In this document: piece after piece, positions 54,817 through 62,815 of the stretch
How positions within the stretch are numbered: position 1 is the stretch's first letter
Layout: each line of letters opens with the position of its first letter
Made by a program: the position numbers and the translations under genes
Notes under the pieces: generated by a model
What the model was told of the DNA's origin: nothing
Database searches by the model: none
The model's input: the letters and a program-made list of their open reading frames with translations, nothing else
Virus record (IMG/VR): IMGVR_UViG_3300036829_000104
Location: 1 to 64,000 of that record
Length of the DNA stretch: 64,000 nt
Direction: 5' to 3' (one strand)
DNA from: a virus

Positions 54817-55491
54817 GTGTCCCGGTCGCGTCCCAGTACTGAGGAAGTCACCGCACGCCGCAGCCGGGTCCTCCAGCTGCGCGCGGCGGGCCTGTCTTAC
54901 CAGGAGATCGCGCGGCAGACCGGTCACAAAACCGCCGCCGCGGCGGCGCAGGACGCTACGCGGGCGTTGCGTGACCGGCAGGCGGTAGGGGAGCCGGCGG
55001 GCCTGTTCGGCACGCTTGAGCTCGAGCGGATCGACTCGCTTGAGCGGGCGATGCAGACGGTGCTGCGGACGGCGGCGGGCAAAGGTGACCATGAGACGGT
55101 CCTGAAGTCGGTTGACCGGCTGACGCGCCTGTCGGAGCGCCGCTCGCGGCTCCTCGGCGACGGCGGCGGGAACGCGGGCGGCGGCCATTCGGACGAGACG
55201 CCCGGCCGGTATACCGCGTCGAAGCCCGGCCCCGTGGAGCAGCGGGTGCGTGCCGATATCGGCGCGCTGATGACGAGTCATCCGATGGGCGAGGCGCTGA
55301 CCGAGATGTGTCACACGCTGGCGCGGAACCTGGACAACGGCGCCGGGCTCGCGACGGCGGCGGTGAACCGCGAGCTGCGGGCGAACCTGGCGGAGCTGAG
55401 CAGGCTGGCGGTTGATGACGGCGATGAGCTTGCGGACGAGCTATCCGTCCCTGAGCTGCCCTCCCCGGTTCGGGACTCCGCGGAGTCCTGA
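54817..55491 (+). CDS. terS: Terminase small subunit
   Basis: 224 residues from GTG (GAGGAGG upstream). The N-terminal HTH (SRVLQLRAAGLSYQEIARQT GHKTAAAAAQDATRALR) would bind the packaging site. A helical oligomerisation region (LERAMQTVLRTAAGKGDHET VLKSVDRLTRLSERRSRLL) and an acidic C-terminus follow. Overlaps the large subunit by about 75 bases. Confidence 0.8.
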   Translation: MSRSRPSTEEVTARRSRVLQLRAAGLSYQEIARQTGHKTAAAAAQDATRALRDRQAVGEPAGLFGTLELERIDSLERAMQTVLRTAAGKGDHETVLKSVDRLTRLSERRSRLLGDGGGNAGGGHSDETPGRYTASKPGPVEQRVRADIGALMTSHPMGEALTEMCHTLARNLDNGAGLATAAVNRELRANLAELSRLAVDDGDELADELSVPELPSPVRDSAES

Positions 55492-56923
55492 CCGCCCGAC
55501 GCTGGGCGGGCAGGTCGCGAACGTCGCGGCGAAGCTGGGCAAGCCGTTCATGCCGTGGCAGCGGTATGTCGCCGACGTGGTGATGGAGATCGACCCGGCG
55601 ACCGGGCAGCTCGCGTACTCGGAGATGGGACTGACGGTCCCGCGGCAGTCGGGGAAGTCGACGTGGGTGCTGGCCAAGGCCGTGCACCGGGCGTCGGCCA
55701 CGAAGTTTTTCGGGGCGCGGCAGCACCTGGTGTATACGGCGCAGACCCGGCTGAAGGCGCGGGAGAAGTGGGAAGAGGACTTCCTCACCGAGCTTGAGGC
55801 GTCGAGCGCGTTCAGGCACCGGTTCAAGCCGCACCTGGCGAACGGCACCGAGCATCTGCGGTTCGTGAACGGTTCCCGGTTCGGCCTCGAGGCGGGGACG
55901 GAGAAGGCCGGGCACGGCGGGACGCTGGACGAGGCCTACATCGACGAGGCGTTCGCGCAGTCTGACTGGCGGCTGGAGCAGGCGTTCGGCCCGGCGATGA
56001 TCACGCGGGCGAACAAGCTGCTGGCGTGGATCTCGACGGCGGGATGGCTCGGCGGCTCGCAGTACCTGGCGGACAAGGTTGAGATCGGCCGGGCAGCGGT
56101 CGAGGAGGGCCGGACACGCGGCCTGGCGTACTTCGAGTGGTCGGCGGCGGATAGCGCGGACCCGGGGGACCCGGCAACCTGGTATGCGTGCATGCCGGCG
56201 CTCGGCTACACGATCAGCGAGGACGCGATCCGCGCCGAGTACGAGAAGGCGCGCGACGCCGGGAAGCTCAACGAGTTCGAGCGCGCCTACCTGAACCGGT
56301 GGGTGCCGAAGCAGGTGCAGGCGTCCCGTTCGGCGCTGGACCTGGCCGGGTGGGAGCGGAACGCGGACCCGGCGTCGGAGATCACCTCCCGGGTCGCGAT
56401 CGGGTTCTCGATCGCACCGGACTTGTCGTCGGCGGCGATCGGGGTTGCGGGGCGGCGGGCAGACGGCCTCGGCCACCTCGAGCTGACGGATCACCGCGAG
56501 GGCACGGCGTGGGTGACGGACCGGCTGCTGGAGATGGCGAAGCGGTGGGGCCCGTGCGCGATCGTGCTGAACCCGTCGTCGGCCGCCGCAGCGATCGAGA
56601 AGGACCTGATCGAGCGCGGCGTGAAGCCGAAGCCCGGCCCGGGCGAGTACCTGCTGCACGTGGTGGGCGGCCGGGAGTGGGCGCAGGCGTGCGTTGCGCT
56701 CGCGCGGGACGTGACCGGCGACCGGCTGCGGGTCCTGCCGGCGCCGCCGCTGGACGACGCGGCACGGGACGCGGTGCGGCGGAAGCTCGGGGATTCGTGG
56801 GCGTTCGCGGAGAGGCCTGACGGCGCGGACATCCGCCCGCTCGAGGCCGTGACGCTCGCGAGGCACGGGTTCATGACCCACGGCCTCGCGGAGCCGGCGG
56901 ACCCGTTCGTGATCTTCGGATAG
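55415..56923 (+). CDS. terL: Terminase large subunit
   Basis: 502 residues; ATG at 55415 or 55424 possible. ATPase domain with Walker A VPRQSGKS (75-82), Walker B EAYIDEAF (about 175) and the C-motif region WISTAGW. The nuclease domain begins near VAIGFSIAPDLSSAAIGVAG and includes IVLNPSSAAAAIEKDL. At the first metal-binding position this copy has SIAPD rather than the usual DxSPD. It packages DNA into the prohead. Confidence 0.92.
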   Translation: MTAMSLRTSYPSLSCPPRFGTPRSPDRPTLGGQVANVAAKLGKPFMPWQRYVADVVMEIDPATGQLAYSEMGLTVPRQSGKSTWVLAKAVHRASATKFFGARQHLVYTAQTRLKAREKWEEDFLTELEASSAFRHRFKPHLANGTEHLRFVNGSRFGLEAGTEKAGHGGTLDEAYIDEAFAQSDWRLEQAFGPAMITRANKLLAWISTAGWLGGSQYLADKVEIGRAAVEEGRTRGLAYFEWSAADSADPGDPATWYACMPALGYTISEDAIRAEYEKARDAGKLNEFERAYLNRWVPKQVQASRSALDLAGWERNADPASEITSRVAIGFSIAPDLSSAAIGVAGRRADGLGHLELTDHREGTAWVTDRLLEMAKRWGPCAIVLNPSSAAAAIEKDLIERGVKPKPGPGEYLLHVVGGREWAQACVALARDVTGDRLRVLPAPPLDDAARDAVRRKLGDSWAFAERPDGADIRPLEAVTLARHGFMTHGLAEPADPFVIFG

Positions 56924-57176: not shown

Positions 57177-57412
57177 TGACGGTTCTCGATCACGTCCCGG
57201 TAGAGCGAATCAGCGAGCGGGCCTCGTCGGTGCGGTTCTCCCGGGTCCTCGTCGCGGTGGTCGCCGGCGTCCTGTTCGGGCTCGGCTGGGTCGCGTACAA
57301 GACCCTCGCAGTCGTGTGGTTCGCCGCGGTCTGGTGCGCGATGGCTGTTGCAGAGGGATGGGCTGATGCACGCAGGGGACAGGTGACACGTGGGCCTGCC
57401 CGAGCGGGTTAA
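57173..57412 (+). CDS. Small membrane protein
   Basis: 79 residues starting at GTG 57173 or ATG 57176 in a GTGA junction. Spans VLVAVVAGVLFGLGWVAY and LAVVWFAAVWCAMAVAEG. It overlaps the portal start by 23 bases. Confidence 0.65.
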   Translation: MMTVLDHVPVERISERASSVRFSRVLVAVVAGVLFGLGWVAYKTLAVVWFAAVWCAMAVAEGWADARRGQVTRGPARAG

Positions 57413-59438
57413 CGCCCGCGCGTCCCGAGCCCTGTCGCGGCGAACGGGCGGCGCCCTGTCGTGGGACGAGTACCAGTCGTATTTCGACTTCGGCGGCCCC
57501 GGTGCGCCGCTCCTGCAGACGACGATGGGGTCGCTGGACCGGGAGAAAGTCGCCGCCTCCGCGGTCGCCGCCTACAAGGCGTCGGGGCCGGTGTTCGCGC
57601 TGGTGATGGCCCGGATGCAGGTGTTCTCCCAGGTGCGGTTCCAGTGGACCCGGTTCTCCGGCAGCCTGCCCGGTGACCTGTTCGGCACGCCAGAGCTCGG
57701 GGTGCTGGAGAAGCCGTGGCCGAACGGGACGACCGCGGACCTGCTGGCCCGCATGGAGATGCACAACTCCCTCGCCGGGAACGCGTACGTGCGGCGCACC
57801 CGAGTCGACCAGCTGAACGTGCTGCGGCCGGACCTGGTGACGATCATCCTCGGCTCGCAGGAGAACGAGGCGGACCCGGCGCTGGCCGCCGACACCGAGG
57901 TCGCCGGCTACTTCTACACGCCGGCCGGGGGCAGGCCGCAGATCTTCCTGCCTGACGAGATCGCGCACTTCGCGCCGGTCCCGGACCCGTGGTTCCACTT
58001 CCTCGGCCAGTCGTGGATCACGCCGGTGCTGCGGGAACTACAGGGCGACATGGCCGCCACCGAGCACAAGTGGGCGTTCTTCCAGAACTCCGCAACACCT
58101 AACCTCGCGGTCAAGTTCGACCCCGCGCTGACGATCGACAAGGTGCGGGCCTTCAAGGAACTGATGGAGGAGGAGCACCGGGGAGTCCGCAACGCGTTCC
58201 GCACGCTCTACCTCGGCGGCGGCGCGGACCCGACGACGGTCGGGTCCAGTTTCAAGGACATGGATTACGCGGTGATCCAGGGCCGCGCCGAGTCCCGGCT
58301 CGCCTCCGCAGCGGGCGTGCCGCCGTCCTGGGTCGGGTTCGCTGAGGGCCTCCAGGGCTCCAGCCTCAACGCCGGGAACTTCGACTCGGCTCGCAGGCGG
58401 TTCGCTGACGGAACACTTGTTCACCTTTGGACCAACGCGGCCGCGTCGCTGGGGTCGATCCTCACGCCCCCGGACCAGTTCTCGCAGCTGTGGTATGACT
58501 CGCGTGTCCCGTTCATGCGGGAAGACGCCGGGGACCTCGCGAAGATCCAGGCGCAGCAGGCGCAGACGATCGCGGCGCTGGTGCGGGAAGGGTTCACCCC
58601 GGAGTCGGTAAAGCTGGCGGTCGCGAACAACGACATGAACCTGCTCGAGCACACCGGGATGCTGAGCGTGCAGCTGTGGGAGCCGGGCGCGGAGAGTTCC
58701 GCTCACCCGGAGCCGGGCGCGGAGTCGCCGTCAGTACCGGCGGGCGTTCCCGCAGGACCGCCGGCGCCTGCCGGGCAGCCCGCCGTGGTGAACGGCGCGG
58801 CGAACGGCGCGACTCCGGCGCTGCATGCGGGCGGCGCGGCGAACGGCAAGCCGGTCTCATCCGCGAACGGGAAGGCCGTCCCGGCGCGTAGCATCCGCGC
58901 GATGAACGGCTACCCGGACGGAGAGCAGTCCCCGCAACCGGGCATGATCTCGCTCGACCTGCCCGACGGGACGATCGACCCGCTGCCCGGCGGCGTCACC
59001 GACCATCACGTGACCGTCGTCTACCTCGGCCCCGACGTCGACGACACGGCGTTCACGCAGGCATGCGCACGCGCGCTCCAGGCCGCCACCGACGCGCCCG
59101 GGCCGCTCGCCGGGACGGTCGACGGGCTCGGCACGTTCCCGCCGTCGGATGCCAGCGACGGGAAGACGCCCGTGTACGCGGACGCGGACCTGCCGGGCGC
59201 GCAGGCGCTCCGCGACGCCCTCGCCGACCTGTCGCAAAGCGAGTTCACCGACTGGGTGCCGCACGTCACCTTGTGCTATGCGGGACCGGATGACGAGCTT
59301 CCGCCGCCGGTGCCCTCAACCCCGGTCACGGTCTCGCACCTGTCGGTCCACCGCGGTGATGACGTGATGCGGTTCCCGCTCGGCGGCGCCGCCGCGGCGT
59401 CCGGCGCGAACGGCAAGGTCCCGGCACACGCCGGCTGA
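57390..59438 (+). CDS. Portal protein fused to a 2H phosphoesterase domain
   Basis: 682 residues from GTG. Residues 1-430 are an HK97-family portal (PVFALVMARMQVFSQVRFQW, LAGNAYVRR, GQSWITPVLRELQGDMAATE, VPPSWVGFAEGLQGSSLNAG NF). A Gly/Ala/Pro/Asn-rich linker (435-515) follows. Residues 519-665 carry HHVTVVYLG (about 538) and HVTLCYAG (about 625), the two HxT motifs of 2H/ligT phosphoesterases, which hydrolyse 2',3'-cyclic phosphates or 2'-5' linkages such as cyclic oligonucleotide signals. Confidence 0.85.
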   Translation: MGLPERVNARASRALSRRTGGALSWDEYQSYFDFGGPGAPLLQTTMGSLDREKVAASAVAAYKASGPVFALVMARMQVFSQVRFQWTRFSGSLPGDLFGTPELGVLEKPWPNGTTADLLARMEMHNSLAGNAYVRRTRVDQLNVLRPDLVTIILGSQENEADPALAADTEVAGYFYTPAGGRPQIFLPDEIAHFAPVPDPWFHFLGQSWITPVLRELQGDMAATEHKWAFFQNSATPNLAVKFDPALTIDKVRAFKELMEEEHRGVRNAFRTLYLGGGADPTTVGSSFKDMDYAVIQGRAESRLASAAGVPPSWVGFAEGLQGSSLNAGNFDSARRRFADGTLVHLWTNAAASLGSILTPPDQFSQLWYDSRVPFMREDAGDLAKIQAQQAQTIAALVREGFTPESVKLAVANNDMNLLEHTGMLSVQLWEPGAESSAHPEPGAESPSVPAGVPAGPPAPAGQPAVVNGAANGATPALHAGGAANGKPVSSANGKAVPARSIRAMNGYPDGEQSPQPGMISLDLPDGTIDPLPGGVTDHHVTVVYLGPDVDDTAFTQACARALQAATDAPGPLAGTVDGLGTFPPSDASDGKTPVYADADLPGAQALRDALADLSQSEFTDWVPHVTLCYAGPDDELPPPVPSTPVTVSHLSVHRGDDVMRFPLGGAAAASGANGKVPAHAG

Positions 59439-59527: not shown

Positions 59528-62500
59528 ATGACGGAAACCGATCGCAGGGTGCGCCGCGCGCTGGACGGCGAGGGCGACGGGCTGCGTTCCCGCGTCCTGC
59601 CGCTGGACGACATCGAGATCCTGTCCCGCTCCAAGGGCGGCGACCCGGACGGGCGCACCGTTGTCGCCTACGCCGCAGCGTTCGGCAAGCCCACCGAGAT
59701 CTGGGACCAGGACGGCCACTACACCGAGGAGAACCATCCGCACTCGTTCAACAAGACGGTCGCCGACCGCGGTGTGCGGTTCGGGGCGTTCTACCACCAC
59801 GGCCGCACCCTGCAAGGTACCCCGTCGGAGCGCGGGTCGGTGCCGATCGGCCGGCCGGCCCTCGTCCAGCCGGACGGCAAGGGCCTGCTGACCCACACCG
59901 TCTACAACCGGACCCAGCTTGCCGACGACGTGCTGGACAGCATCCGCAACGGCGACCCGATGGGCATGTCGTACACCGGCGCCTACCTGCAGTCCGACCC
60001 GGGGAACGGCCCCTTCCGGGCACGCAGCGACGGCTCCTTGCCGCACGTGGTGCGCAAGGAAATCGCCTTGATCGAGTTTGGGCCCACCCCCACGCCGGCC
60101 TACGAGGACGCGGAGATCCTCGGCGTGCGTGCCGCGCAGCTGCGTGAGGCGGCCCGTGCCGCCCGGGCGTCCGGGGCGGAGCCGTACCAGCGTCACGCCG
60201 GCGAAGACGTGCAGTGCCCTGACTGCGGCTGCTTCAACGAGGCGGACGCCAACTACTGCGACCAGTGCGGCATCCAGCTGCCTGATTCAGCGTTCCCGGA
60301 CGGGCGGCAGCCCTACCAGCGGGATCCGGGCGAAGACGTGCAGTGCCCCGCCTGCGAGCGGTACGACATGCCGGACGCGATCTTCTGCGACCAGTGCGGG
60401 GCGCAACTCCCCGCCTCGGCGTACGAGGGCAGCCCGGCGCCGCCCGGCGGGACAGACTCGATGACCGCGGCGGACGGCCCGGTGGCGGACACGACCGCGG
60501 GACGCGCGGCGTCGACCGCGCGGCACGAGCCGGTCAACGGCAGCCACTCCCACCCGCACCCGGCATACGGGGCGCAGGGCGGCGACGCCACCCACAGCCA
60601 CGAGCACGCCCACGACGGCGACGCGAACCACCAGCACTCCCACGACCAGCCGGACCCCGGCGACGAGCCGGCGGGCGGAGACATGCCAGGCCGCAGCAGC
60701 GACCCGGCCACGGTCCTGTCCGCGCACTTCGGCTGGACACCGGAACAGGTCGAGGCGCTCGACGAGCAGGAGCGGTCGCTGCTGCTCGCCAGCATCAGCG
60801 CTGCCCACGGTGGCGGCCCGCACGAGCGCGCCGACGTCGATAACAGCACGTGGGACGGCAACGCCGCGATGGCCGCGTGCAAGACCGCCTCTGATTACCG
60901 GGCGATCTGCGCCGGCGAGAAGACCACCGGCACGCCGGACGAGCGGCAGCACTGGGCTCTCCCGCACCACTCGAAGCCCGATGCTCCGCCGAACGCCAAC
61001 GGGGTCCGCAACAGCCTGTCGCGGCTGCCGCAGACCCAGGACCTCGCGAACAAGCAGGCCGCCGAGGCGCATCTGCAGGCCCACATGAGGACGATCAGCC
61101 CCGGCGGAGACTCCGGCGGGGATGACTCGGGCACTTCCGGCAGAAGCGAGACCACCCCGGCCGCCGCAAGCGGCACCGGGGCCGGAACCGCACCGGAAGC
61201 CGCACCCGCAGTAAGGACCGTGAAGCCGCATGAGCACTCCACGGGTGACACCGAAACCGGAAGTGAAAGGAAAGATGCCGTGGAAGGCATGACGATCGAG
61301 CAGCGGGTCGCCCGGCGAGGGGAAATCGACTCGCGGATCCTCGCGATCAGCGAGGAGCACGGCGAGCGGGCGTTCCCGCCCGAGGTGCAGACCGAGTGGG
61401 ACACGCTCAACACCGAGCTGGACGAGCACTCCCGCGCAATCGACGAGCACGAGCGCGCCCTGACCGCGCGCCGGGAGCGAGTCGCGGCGATCGCCGCCCG
61501 GCAGAACCCGGGCACCGGCGGCACCGCGCCGGGGGAGCGGGTCGACGGCACGGCCACCGGCTACAACGCCCCGTCCGGCACGGGTGAGCGCGGCGCTCCG
61601 GCGCTGCTGCCCGGCCGTACCAGCGACGACATTTACGACGTGACCGCGATCCGGTCCCGTGCTTCCAGCCCCGAGCATCTCGCGGGCCTGTACCGGGACA
61701 ACGCGCTGCGCGCGATCGAGCGGGGCACCTTCCCCGGCTCGGACTCCCGGGAGCGCTCGCAGGGCACCGTGGAGCGCCTGCTGCACCGCTGCGACAACGA
61801 GGAAGGCGTCCTCGCCCGCCGCATCCTGGTCACAGGCAACCCGGTTTACATGCGGGCGTACGCGAAGTACGTGGCCCGTCTCGGCGGGGGCGGGCTGAGC
61901 CAGGAGGAGGCGCAGGCGCTCGAGCGCGGCCGGGCGATGGCGGTCGGCACGGGCGCGGACGGCGGTTTCGCGGTCCCCTTCCAGCTCGACCCGACGGTCA
62001 TCCTCACTTCCGACGGGGCGATCAACCCGCTGCGGCAGATCTCCCGCGTGGAGCAGATCGTGGGCAAGGAGTTCGACCTTGTCACCTCCACCGGGGTGAC
62101 GGTGACCCGGTCCAATGAGGCGACGCCGATGCCGGACAACTCGCCGACCCTCGCGCAGCCGACGATCAGGGCGGAGCGGCTGACAGGCTTCATCCCGTTC
62201 TCGATGGAAATCGAGCAGGACTGGTCGGCGCTGCAGTCGCAGATGATGATGCTGCTGGCCGACGCGAAGGACGTCGAGGAAGCAGAGTCGTTCACCAACG
62301 GCAACGGCACCGCGCCGAACGCCGGCGGTATCGTCGCCACCCTGGCCGCGTCCAGCATCATCACGGGCACCGGCACCACCGGGACCCTCGCCGAAGGCGA
62401 CCTGTACGCGCTCGAGGACGACATGGCGCCCCGGTTCCGCTCCCGGGCGGTGTGGATGGCGTCCAAGACGTCGTTCAACGCCTACCGGCAGCTGTTCACG

Positions 62501-62815
62501 CAGACTGCCAGCGCGGCCGGGGACCCGTGGGTGCGTCCCAGCGCCGGCACCCCGCCGGAGCTGCTCGGCTATGGGGCGTACGAGAACTCGGCGATGGCCT
62601 CCACGCACGCCACCGGCGACAAGCCCATCGTCCTGGGTGACTTCAGCCGCGGCTTCCTGATCATCGACCGCTTGGGCATGAGCACTGAAATCGCCCCGAT
62701 GCTGTTCGACCCGACGACGGGCCGGCCGACCGGCCAGCGCGGTCTGGTCATGTTCTGGCGGAACAACTCCCGGGTCATCGTGGACAACGCGTTCCGGATG
62801 ATCACCGTCCCGTAA
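59528..62815 (+). CDS. Prohead protease-zinc ribbon-capsid polyprotein
   Basis: 1095 residues. 1-205: HK97-type prohead protease with GAFYHHGRT (His90-91) and GMSYTG (Ser148). 226-295: two zinc ribbons (CPDC...CDQC, CPAC...CDQC). 338-373: His-rich stretch. 395-520: domain with STWDGNAAMAACKTASDYRA ICAGE and NANGVRNSL. 585-1095: delta-like coiled coil and HK97-type major capsid domain (GGFAVPFQLDP, FIPFSMEIEQDW, VMFWRNNSRV). An internal GTG start at 61280 could yield capsid alone. Full processing would release protease, scaffold-like middle and capsid. Confidence 0.9.
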   Translation: MTETDRRVRRALDGEGDGLRSRVLPLDDIEILSRSKGGDPDGRTVVAYAAAFGKPTEIWDQDGHYTEENHPHSFNKTVADRGVRFGAFYHHGRTLQGTPSERGSVPIGRPALVQPDGKGLLTHTVYNRTQLADDVLDSIRNGDPMGMSYTGAYLQSDPGNGPFRARSDGSLPHVVRKEIALIEFGPTPTPAYEDAEILGVRAAQLREAARAARASGAEPYQRHAGEDVQCPDCGCFNEADANYCDQCGIQLPDSAFPDGRQPYQRDPGEDVQCPACERYDMPDAIFCDQCGAQLPASAYEGSPAPPGGTDSMTAADGPVADTTAGRAASTARHEPVNGSHSHPHPAYGAQGGDATHSHEHAHDGDANHQHSHDQPDPGDEPAGGDMPGRSSDPATVLSAHFGWTPEQVEALDEQERSLLLASISAAHGGGPHERADVDNSTWDGNAAMAACKTASDYRAICAGEKTTGTPDERQHWALPHHSKPDAPPNANGVRNSLSRLPQTQDLANKQAAEAHLQAHMRTISPGGDSGGDDSGTSGRSETTPAAASGTGAGTAPEAAPAVRTVKPHEHSTGDTETGSERKDAVEGMTIEQRVARRGEIDSRILAISEEHGERAFPPEVQTEWDTLNTELDEHSRAIDEHERALTARRERVAAIAARQNPGTGGTAPGERVDGTATGYNAPSGTGERGAPALLPGRTSDDIYDVTAIRSRASSPEHLAGLYRDNALRAIERGTFPGSDSRERSQGTVERLLHRCDNEEGVLARRILVTGNPVYMRAYAKYVARLGGGGLSQEEAQALERGRAMAVGTGADGGFAVPFQLDPTVILTSDGAINPLRQISRVEQIVGKEFDLVTSTGVTVTRSNEATPMPDNSPTLAQPTIRAERLTGFIPFSMEIEQDWSALQSQMMMLLADAKDVEEAESFTNGNGTAPNAGGIVATLAASSIITGTGTTGTLAEGDLYALEDDMAPRFRSRAVWMASKTSFNAYRQLFTQTASAAGDPWVRPSAGTPPELLGYGAYENSAMASTHATGDKPIVLGDFSRGFLIIDRLGMSTEIAPMLFDPTTGRPTGQRGLVMFWRNNSRVIVDNAFRMITVP
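61280..62815 (+). CDS. Major capsid protein from internal start (nested)
   Basis: 511 residues, in frame with the polyprotein. AAAGGAAAG at 61266-61274 lies eight bases before GTG GAA GGC ATG. The product starts with the coiled coil TIEQRVARRGEIDSRILAIS, the usual delta domain of HK97-type capsids. The large excess of capsid over protease needed in a virion makes such an internal start plausible. Confidence 0.6.
   Translation: MEGMTIEQRVARRGEIDSRILAISEEHGERAFPPEVQTEWDTLNTELDEHSRAIDEHERALTARRERVAAIAARQNPGTGGTAPGERVDGTATGYNAPSGTGERGAPALLPGRTSDDIYDVTAIRSRASSPEHLAGLYRDNALRAIERGTFPGSDSRERSQGTVERLLHRCDNEEGVLARRILVTGNPVYMRAYAKYVARLGGGGLSQEEAQALERGRAMAVGTGADGGFAVPFQLDPTVILTSDGAINPLRQISRVEQIVGKEFDLVTSTGVTVTRSNEATPMPDNSPTLAQPTIRAERLTGFIPFSMEIEQDWSALQSQMMMLLADAKDVEEAESFTNGNGTAPNAGGIVATLAASSIITGTGTTGTLAEGDLYALEDDMAPRFRSRAVWMASKTSFNAYRQLFTQTASAAGDPWVRPSAGTPPELLGYGAYENSAMASTHATGDKPIVLGDFSRGFLIIDRLGMSTEIAPMLFDPTTGRPTGQRGLVMFWRNNSRVIVDNAFRMITVP

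Follow-up and report, generated by a model that had tools for sequence, protein, structure and literature searches.

In bacteriophage lambda, the protease gene C holds a nested in-frame start from which an assembly protein, Nu3, is produced in excess; Nu3 itself is a free scaffold, and the C protease is of the S49 kind. In HK97, the protease (gp4) and the capsid protein with its N-terminal scaffold or delta domain (gp5) come from two separate genes, and in mycobacteriophage Brujita (gp6/gp7) the genes are also split, with a 4-nt overlap. Fusions that place a protease ahead of an HK97-type capsid protein within one unbroken frame have already been reported in phages of Rhodococcus (REQ1, Madraxi, Shagrat), Arthrobacter (clusters AM, AU, AN), Microbacterium (EE), and Gordonia (DJ, DM) (PMC5513430, PMC9671378). 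Here we consider such a fusion in a soil actinobacteriophage-like virus, encoded at positions 59528–62815 of a 64,000-nucleotide stretch of DNA (the window; positions 1 to 64,000 of the 83.6-kb IMG/VR virus record IMGVR_UViG_3300036829_000104). Specifically, we examine a conserved start site inside the frame that would yield the capsid protein alone, and a linker between protease and capsid that is built of interchangeable modules.

Comparing this locus with the described systems reveals both likenesses and differences. As in lambda C/Nu3, an internal Shine-Dalgarno (SD) sequence and start codon (61266–61282) lie within the protease frame, but the nested product would be the capsid protein itself rather than a free scaffold, and the protease belongs to the S78 family. 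The window shares its protease and capsid families with HK97, including the N-terminal scaffold on the capsid protein, although here protease, linker, and capsid occupy one frame with a nested start. The Brujita capsid is homologous (32% identity) and adjoins its protease gene without any linker modules. The Rhodococcus fusion proteins are 37–39% identical to the window protein over 54–61% of its length (protease and capsid); the actinophage linkers examined are short and lack the zinc ribbons, His tract, and LPHH domain described below, all of which are present in the window. The closest solved capsid homologue, PDB 9lw6 (expectation value (E) 7e-63), like 9lw7 and 9lw8, is a 543-residue chain that matches the capsid part only and has neither protease nor linker. 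The fusion itself is known, and what goes beyond it is the conserved internal start, the occurrence of fusions with S14 proteases, and the interchangeable linker modules. A conserved internal capsid start is not reported in PMC5513430 or PMC9671378, and the internal ATG discussed for EpicDab gp9 is located ahead of the protease domain (PMC9671378). Our literature search found no description of a protease-capsid fusion with an internal capsid start, nor of DUF6582, a domain that recurs in the linkers.

The frame runs without interruption from the ATG at 59528 to the stop at 62815, and the features that bear on the nested start are these (aa, amino acids; pLDDT, predicted local distance difference test):

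59528..62815, + strand: protease-linker-capsid polyprotein open reading frame (ORF), 1095 aa, predicted mass ~117 kDa
59651..60127, + strand: Peptidase_S78 prohead protease domain, residues 42–200 (Pfam; alignment)
61266..61271, + strand: internal Shine-Dalgarno AAAGGA, 8 nt before GTG 61280
61280..61282, + strand: internal GTG, putative capsid protein start
61280..62815, + strand: 511-aa major capsid protein that includes a scaffold (delta) domain, predicted mass ~55 kDa (PF05065, TIGR01554, phrog_10)
61289..61504, + strand: predicted scaffold (delta) helices, residues 588–659, long helices with pLDDT 72–88
61961..62806, + strand: HK97-fold capsid domain, residues 812–1093 (Pfam)

The first-pass annotation had read five parts in this one frame, and the ORF together with Pfam, NCBIfam, and PHROGs bears this out. 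The S78 match (PF04586, residues 42–200) scores 31.7 bits (threshold 21; E 2e-7, or 5e-9 for the isolated domain), with an NCBIfam TIGR01543 match below threshold. H91, S148, and E183 are invariant in relatives, H91 and S148 having been checked in an alignment of 16–18 fused relatives, and these two are the putative catalytic residues. The capsid assignment comes from Phage_capsid (PF05065, residues 812–1093; 106 bits against 24.2, E 2.5e-30) and TIGR01554 (163.5 bits against 27.5, E 8e-48). In the structural model, the helices at 588–659 form a putative N-terminal delta domain of the kind that the protease would remove.

It had also been proposed that an SD and GTG at 61266–61282 release the capsid separately. 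Both are present, and comparative evidence strongly supports the view that this start would make the capsid protein alone as well. A product begun at GTG 61280 would open Met-Glu-Gly-Met-Thr, and in the model the site lies where a disordered tract (residues 525–586) gives way to the scaffold helix. The nearby ATG at 61289 was rejected as the internal start, its SD reaching only -2.4 kcal/mol. Using the capsid part as a query retrieved 80 IMG/VR loci (the best of 425) and 41 bacterial-genome loci; these and earlier loci contained 85 in-frame fusions, of which 66 were left after near-copy removal, 54 with an S78 and 12 with a ClpP-type (S14) protease. Every one of the 66 has an in-frame start at the beginning of the scaffold domain (ATG in 51, GTG in 15). 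In 89% of them the SD ahead of this start has a duplex energy of -5 kcal/mol or lower, as compared with 13% of 6600 random in-frame windows from the same genes (Mann-Whitney U p 1e-40, related sequences being counted as independent after near-copy removal only, as in all the start-site statistics). Strong SDs fall to 5–9% when windows are displaced 17 codons either way, and to 3% and 0% when the two remaining reading frames are scanned. Furthermore, AGG and AGA, the rare arginine codons that build the SD, make up 50/104 (48%) of arginine codons near the site and 298/4788 (6%) elsewhere (odds ratio 14, p 6e-31), and synonymous recoding across the fusion set gives a significant departure (Stouffer z -6.4).

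Similar sites occur beyond these fusions. In a fused member (L024) and its close, split relative (L032) the capsid gene starts at the identical codon, and three other split relatives (L023, L057, L104) have an SD and ATG at the corresponding point. The AU1, EE, and DJ fusion families are unrelated to the 66-member set and lie outside it, and in each an SD and ATG stand at or near the capsid start: ScienceWizSam (AU1) at residue 241 (-10.7 kcal/mol), Pondwater (EE) at residue 166 (-5.8 kcal/mol), and Chikenjars (DJ) at residue 278 (-7.0 kcal/mol). Likewise, L238, a fusion found by way of its zinc ribbons, has GAAGGAGGAAGCACA-ATG at the capsid start.

On this basis we think it likely that the locus gives rise to two nested products, an abundant capsid protein started internally and a minority polyprotein that takes the protease into the prohead. 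Initiation at 59528 would produce the 117-kDa protease-linker-capsid polyprotein, and GTG 61280 would start the 55-kDa capsid protein, which keeps a scaffold helix. Having the same capsid part, both products would enter one shell together. In HK97-type capsid proteins the N-terminal scaffold faces the prohead interior, so the protease and linker of the polyprotein would end up inside, tethered to the lattice, and after assembly the protease would cleave off itself, the linker, and the scaffold. The linker would then be a variable, scaffold-like string of exchangeable modules that is discarded, and the internal ribosome-binding site would provide the excess of capsid protein. HK97 Prohead 1 holds 415 capsid copies and ~60 protease copies, and D3, whose scaffold attaches to the inside of the capsid, has ~90 protease copies (PMC12749128). 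Since both hold far fewer proteases than capsid proteins, a separate capsid supply is to be expected. Within the window, the SD of the upstream start (AAGGAG) has a long spacing, 15 nt before ATG 59528, as compared with 8 nt at the internal start; for this window, that is consistent with more capsid protein than polyprotein being made.

Several points weigh against this reading. The window's own SD (-5.9 kcal/mol) is no better than that of its synonymous recodings (p 0.56); many single genes, that of the window among them, are non-significant in this comparison because the encoded Glu, Arg, Lys, and Gly are already purine-rich. In 24 of the 66 fusions, a better-scoring SD precedes another in-frame start between protease and capsid. 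In addition, the full-length product may seldom be translated and the fusion may be close to neutral, since split relatives exist and show that fusion can be dispensed with.

This last consideration leads to the best-surviving alternative, namely that these are two ordinary adjoining genes: the protease gene would merely have lost its stop, translation would read on into the capsid gene, and the resulting fused protein would be a neutral by-product. On the capsid tree (a quick tree from which polarity was not inferred), the window and its relative L002 are sister to 11 S14-fused members (Shimodaira–Hasegawa-like approximate likelihood ratio test support 97) within a larger set of S78 fusions, and the tree requires 2 changes of protease type and at least 6 changes between fused and split. 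Such interchange in close relatives, with the capsid start unchanged as in L024 and L032, is what adjoining genes would produce. However, fusion is common in the relatives (66 non-redundant cases) and is seen again both with S14 proteases and in capsid families unrelated to this one, and the linkers, which span 30–487 codons, remain open in frame and carry whole domains. We therefore regard this explanation as unlikely. That in-frame capsid fusion occurs with S14 (ClpP-type) as well as S78 proteases is evident from the domain matches in 12 members (L028, L033, L040, L055, L056, L064, L067, L070, L074, L086, L087, and L108); L040:3560-6280, for example, joins CLP_protease to Phage_capsid. An S14-capsid fusion was not found in the literature searched.

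An explanation of lower standing is that only the full-length protein is made in amount, with autoproteolysis freeing capsid, linker, and protease 1:1:1. The unbroken frame, the intact S78 domain with its invariant H91 and S148, and the coding-like GC content by codon position in the linkers (0.69/0.55/0.81) all fit such a polyprotein. An internal SD and start kept in 66 fusions and enriched in AGG/AGA would nonetheless serve no purpose in it, and it does not agree with the need of HK97 and D3 for far fewer proteases than capsid proteins (PMC12749128); we judge it improbable.

It is informative to examine the linker in light of these relationships. The parts of the window protein follow the order S78 protease, two zinc ribbons, His-rich tract, short helical segment, LPHH domain, disordered tract, HK97-type capsid, and the linker features are as follows:

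60215..60400, + strand: two zinc ribbons (Cys 230, 233, 244, 247; 273, 276, 287, 290; PF12773)
60545..60649, + strand: His-rich tract, residues ~340–374, predicted disordered (pLDDT < 35)
60701..60808, + strand: short helical segment, residues 392–427, pLDDT 79–89 over most of its length, recognisable in L007 too
60836..61111, + strand: LPHH domain, an unnamed ~90-aa module common to four head-maturation protease families

A full-length AlphaFold model (pLDDT 51, predicted template modelling score 0.27; used for order, disorder, and helices only) predicts folded beads at the protease, the ribbons, 392–427, parts of the LPHH domain, and the scaffold helices 588–659, with disorder between them at residues 300–391 and 525–586. 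The double zinc ribbon DZR (PF12773) matches residues 230–291 (isolated piece 45.4 bits against 27.3, E 9e-12) as two CxxC...CxxC ribbons. Used as a query, the single window ribbon sequence gave no match, while a 5-sequence alignment gave matches. The His-rich tract holds up to 8 His in 30 residues.

Among relatives, the linker modules are interchangeable, as judged from their domain content. The identical five-part order recurs in L002, whereas L062 has the window's parts with the His tract placed after LPHH, and L007 has the window's order without the His tract. In L238 and L240 the order is S78, two ribbons, His tract, a DUF6582-like segment, and capsid, that is, the window order with LPHH replaced, and other related fusions have DUF6582 or no recognised module at the same linker position. 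On the capsid tree the LPHH domain requires 9 changes, the zinc ribbon 3, an acidic DxDxDG-type tract 7, and DUF6582 7. Other linker contents were seen as well: an acidic, calcium-loop-like DPDGDGDDDSTPEGDTDHSHW-type tract in L011, L013, L028, L033, L040, L056, and L086 (with S14 and S78 proteases); DnaJ-like CxxCxGxG motifs, another zinc-type module at the same position, together with a DUF6582-like segment in L060:3429-6545; and, in the Rhodococcus/Nocardia fusions L016, L017, L018, and L107, repeated coiled-coil-like WLxAE units that replace folded linker modules. Two further phage proteins of 860–903 aa (L242, L259) have six or seven CxxC pairs, some closely resembling the window ribbons, and no protease was recognised in them by the profiles used.

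The first-pass annotation held that zinc ribbons and a His-rich segment are unusual in this setting and hint at metal-dependent head assembly. The first of these ideas does not hold, as many phage head-maturation proteases have zinc-ribbon, His-rich, or acidic tracts in their tails, and ~27 of 39 zinc-ribbon ORFs from IMG/VR have a recognisable maturation protease. The ribbons themselves likely bind zinc, because all eight cysteines are invariant in five sequences. Nonetheless, we judge it improbable that metal held by the ribbons and the His tract gates assembly or protease activity. The invariant cysteines, the recurrence of these tracts, and the joint loss of histidines in one LPHH subtype (below) could favour it, but 34 of the 66 fusions have no recognised module (a count that leaves out the WLxAE repeats of four more members and any domains missed by the search patterns) and only 4 of 66 have the ribbon pair, so that the family mechanism does not require metal and a dependence of head assembly on metal is unsupported.

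The LPHH domain is the linker module that invites the most attention. The stretch first described as an unknown Cys/Trp domain does prove to be a conserved domain. Its signature is tryptophan together with the LPHH and HLxAH motifs (W..LPHH..HLxAH), but in a 33-sequence alignment its cysteines are not strictly conserved. From that alignment, an AlphaFold2 model of 98 residues was obtained with mean pLDDT 93. A fold search of the PDB with this model returned no trustworthy match (best Foldseek E 4, best VIA-align 2 Z 2.6), although this is not proof that the fold is new; the best structural matches among viral models are segments of large proteins (437–892 residues), mostly unnamed entries. The window copy matched nothing in Pfam or PHROGs, other copies gave isolated weak matches only, and tblastn with the window copy against annotated phages and plasmids found none. 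Comparison with DUF6582 (PF20223) gave an hhalign probability of 5%, the second profile being shallow.

An LPHH-seeded search of IMG/VR, from which the best 80 of 227 loci were taken, yielded 62 distinct ORFs. An S78, S14, or S49 protease lies in frame with LPHH in 56 of these; four of the remainder are S78-like by eye and two are truncated by contig ends. A divergent copy also lies on a Mu-I-type protease in Thermus phage Riverbug (PF10123; hidden Markov model E 1e-10). Thus, by sequence comparison, LPHH accompanies four unrelated maturation-protease families: S78, S14, S49, and Mu-I-type. The ChaoS9 prohead protease gave a weak structural match without a sequence match and is not claimed as a carrier. 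The window domain shares 69% identity with a copy on an S49 protease (L008) but only 45% with the L002 copy, even though the L002 capsid is the closest to that of the window (68%); given these identities, exchange of LPHH modules between phages is the simplest reading.

The domain is not exclusively viral. Actinobacterial chromosomes also encode stand-alone proteins of ~120–150 aa with the motif, in neighbourhoods that are not of phage type, for example L225:5080-5532 (+) and L226:5006-5374 (-), which belong to a 122–150 aa range. The LPHH and HLxAH histidines are lost jointly in one subtype (L002, L062, L014, L217; 4 of 94 sequences); being lost together is a hint that they touch or share a ligand, but the four look like, and probably are, a single lineage, which lessens their weight in the metal question. 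Overall, LPHH is a candidate general scaffold or docking module.

The genomic setting agrees with a role in head formation. Upstream lie a terminase (55412–56923) and then a portal (57390–59438), as identified with Pfam and PHROGs, and the location after these two is the usual spot for a head maturation protease and capsid. At its C-terminus the portal has a 2'-5' RNA ligase / 2H phosphoesterase domain (PF13563, residues 540–638, E 5e-7); this portal-phosphoesterase fusion is also present in L002 (76% identity), and among the other loci compared only L013 matches weakly.

Taken more broadly, these observations invite a proposal that we put forward tentatively, as somewhat short of even: that a widespread strategy of actinobacterial tailed phages is to carry the protease into the prohead covalently on a minority of capsid subunits, a conserved ribosome-binding site inside the gene fixing the ratio. 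Phages could exchange one protease fold for another (S78 or ClpP-type) while keeping the fusion and the start, and the linker would act as a docking bay for interchangeable modules, above all for LPHH, which may play one and the same part in assembly whichever of the four unrelated protease families carries it. Nested initiation inside a protease-capsid fusion would offer a genetically simple solution to the open assembly question of how tailed phages place the correct small number of proteases in each prohead, and the idea is directly testable in those phages of Rhodococcus, Arthrobacter, Microbacterium, and Gordonia that are in culture.

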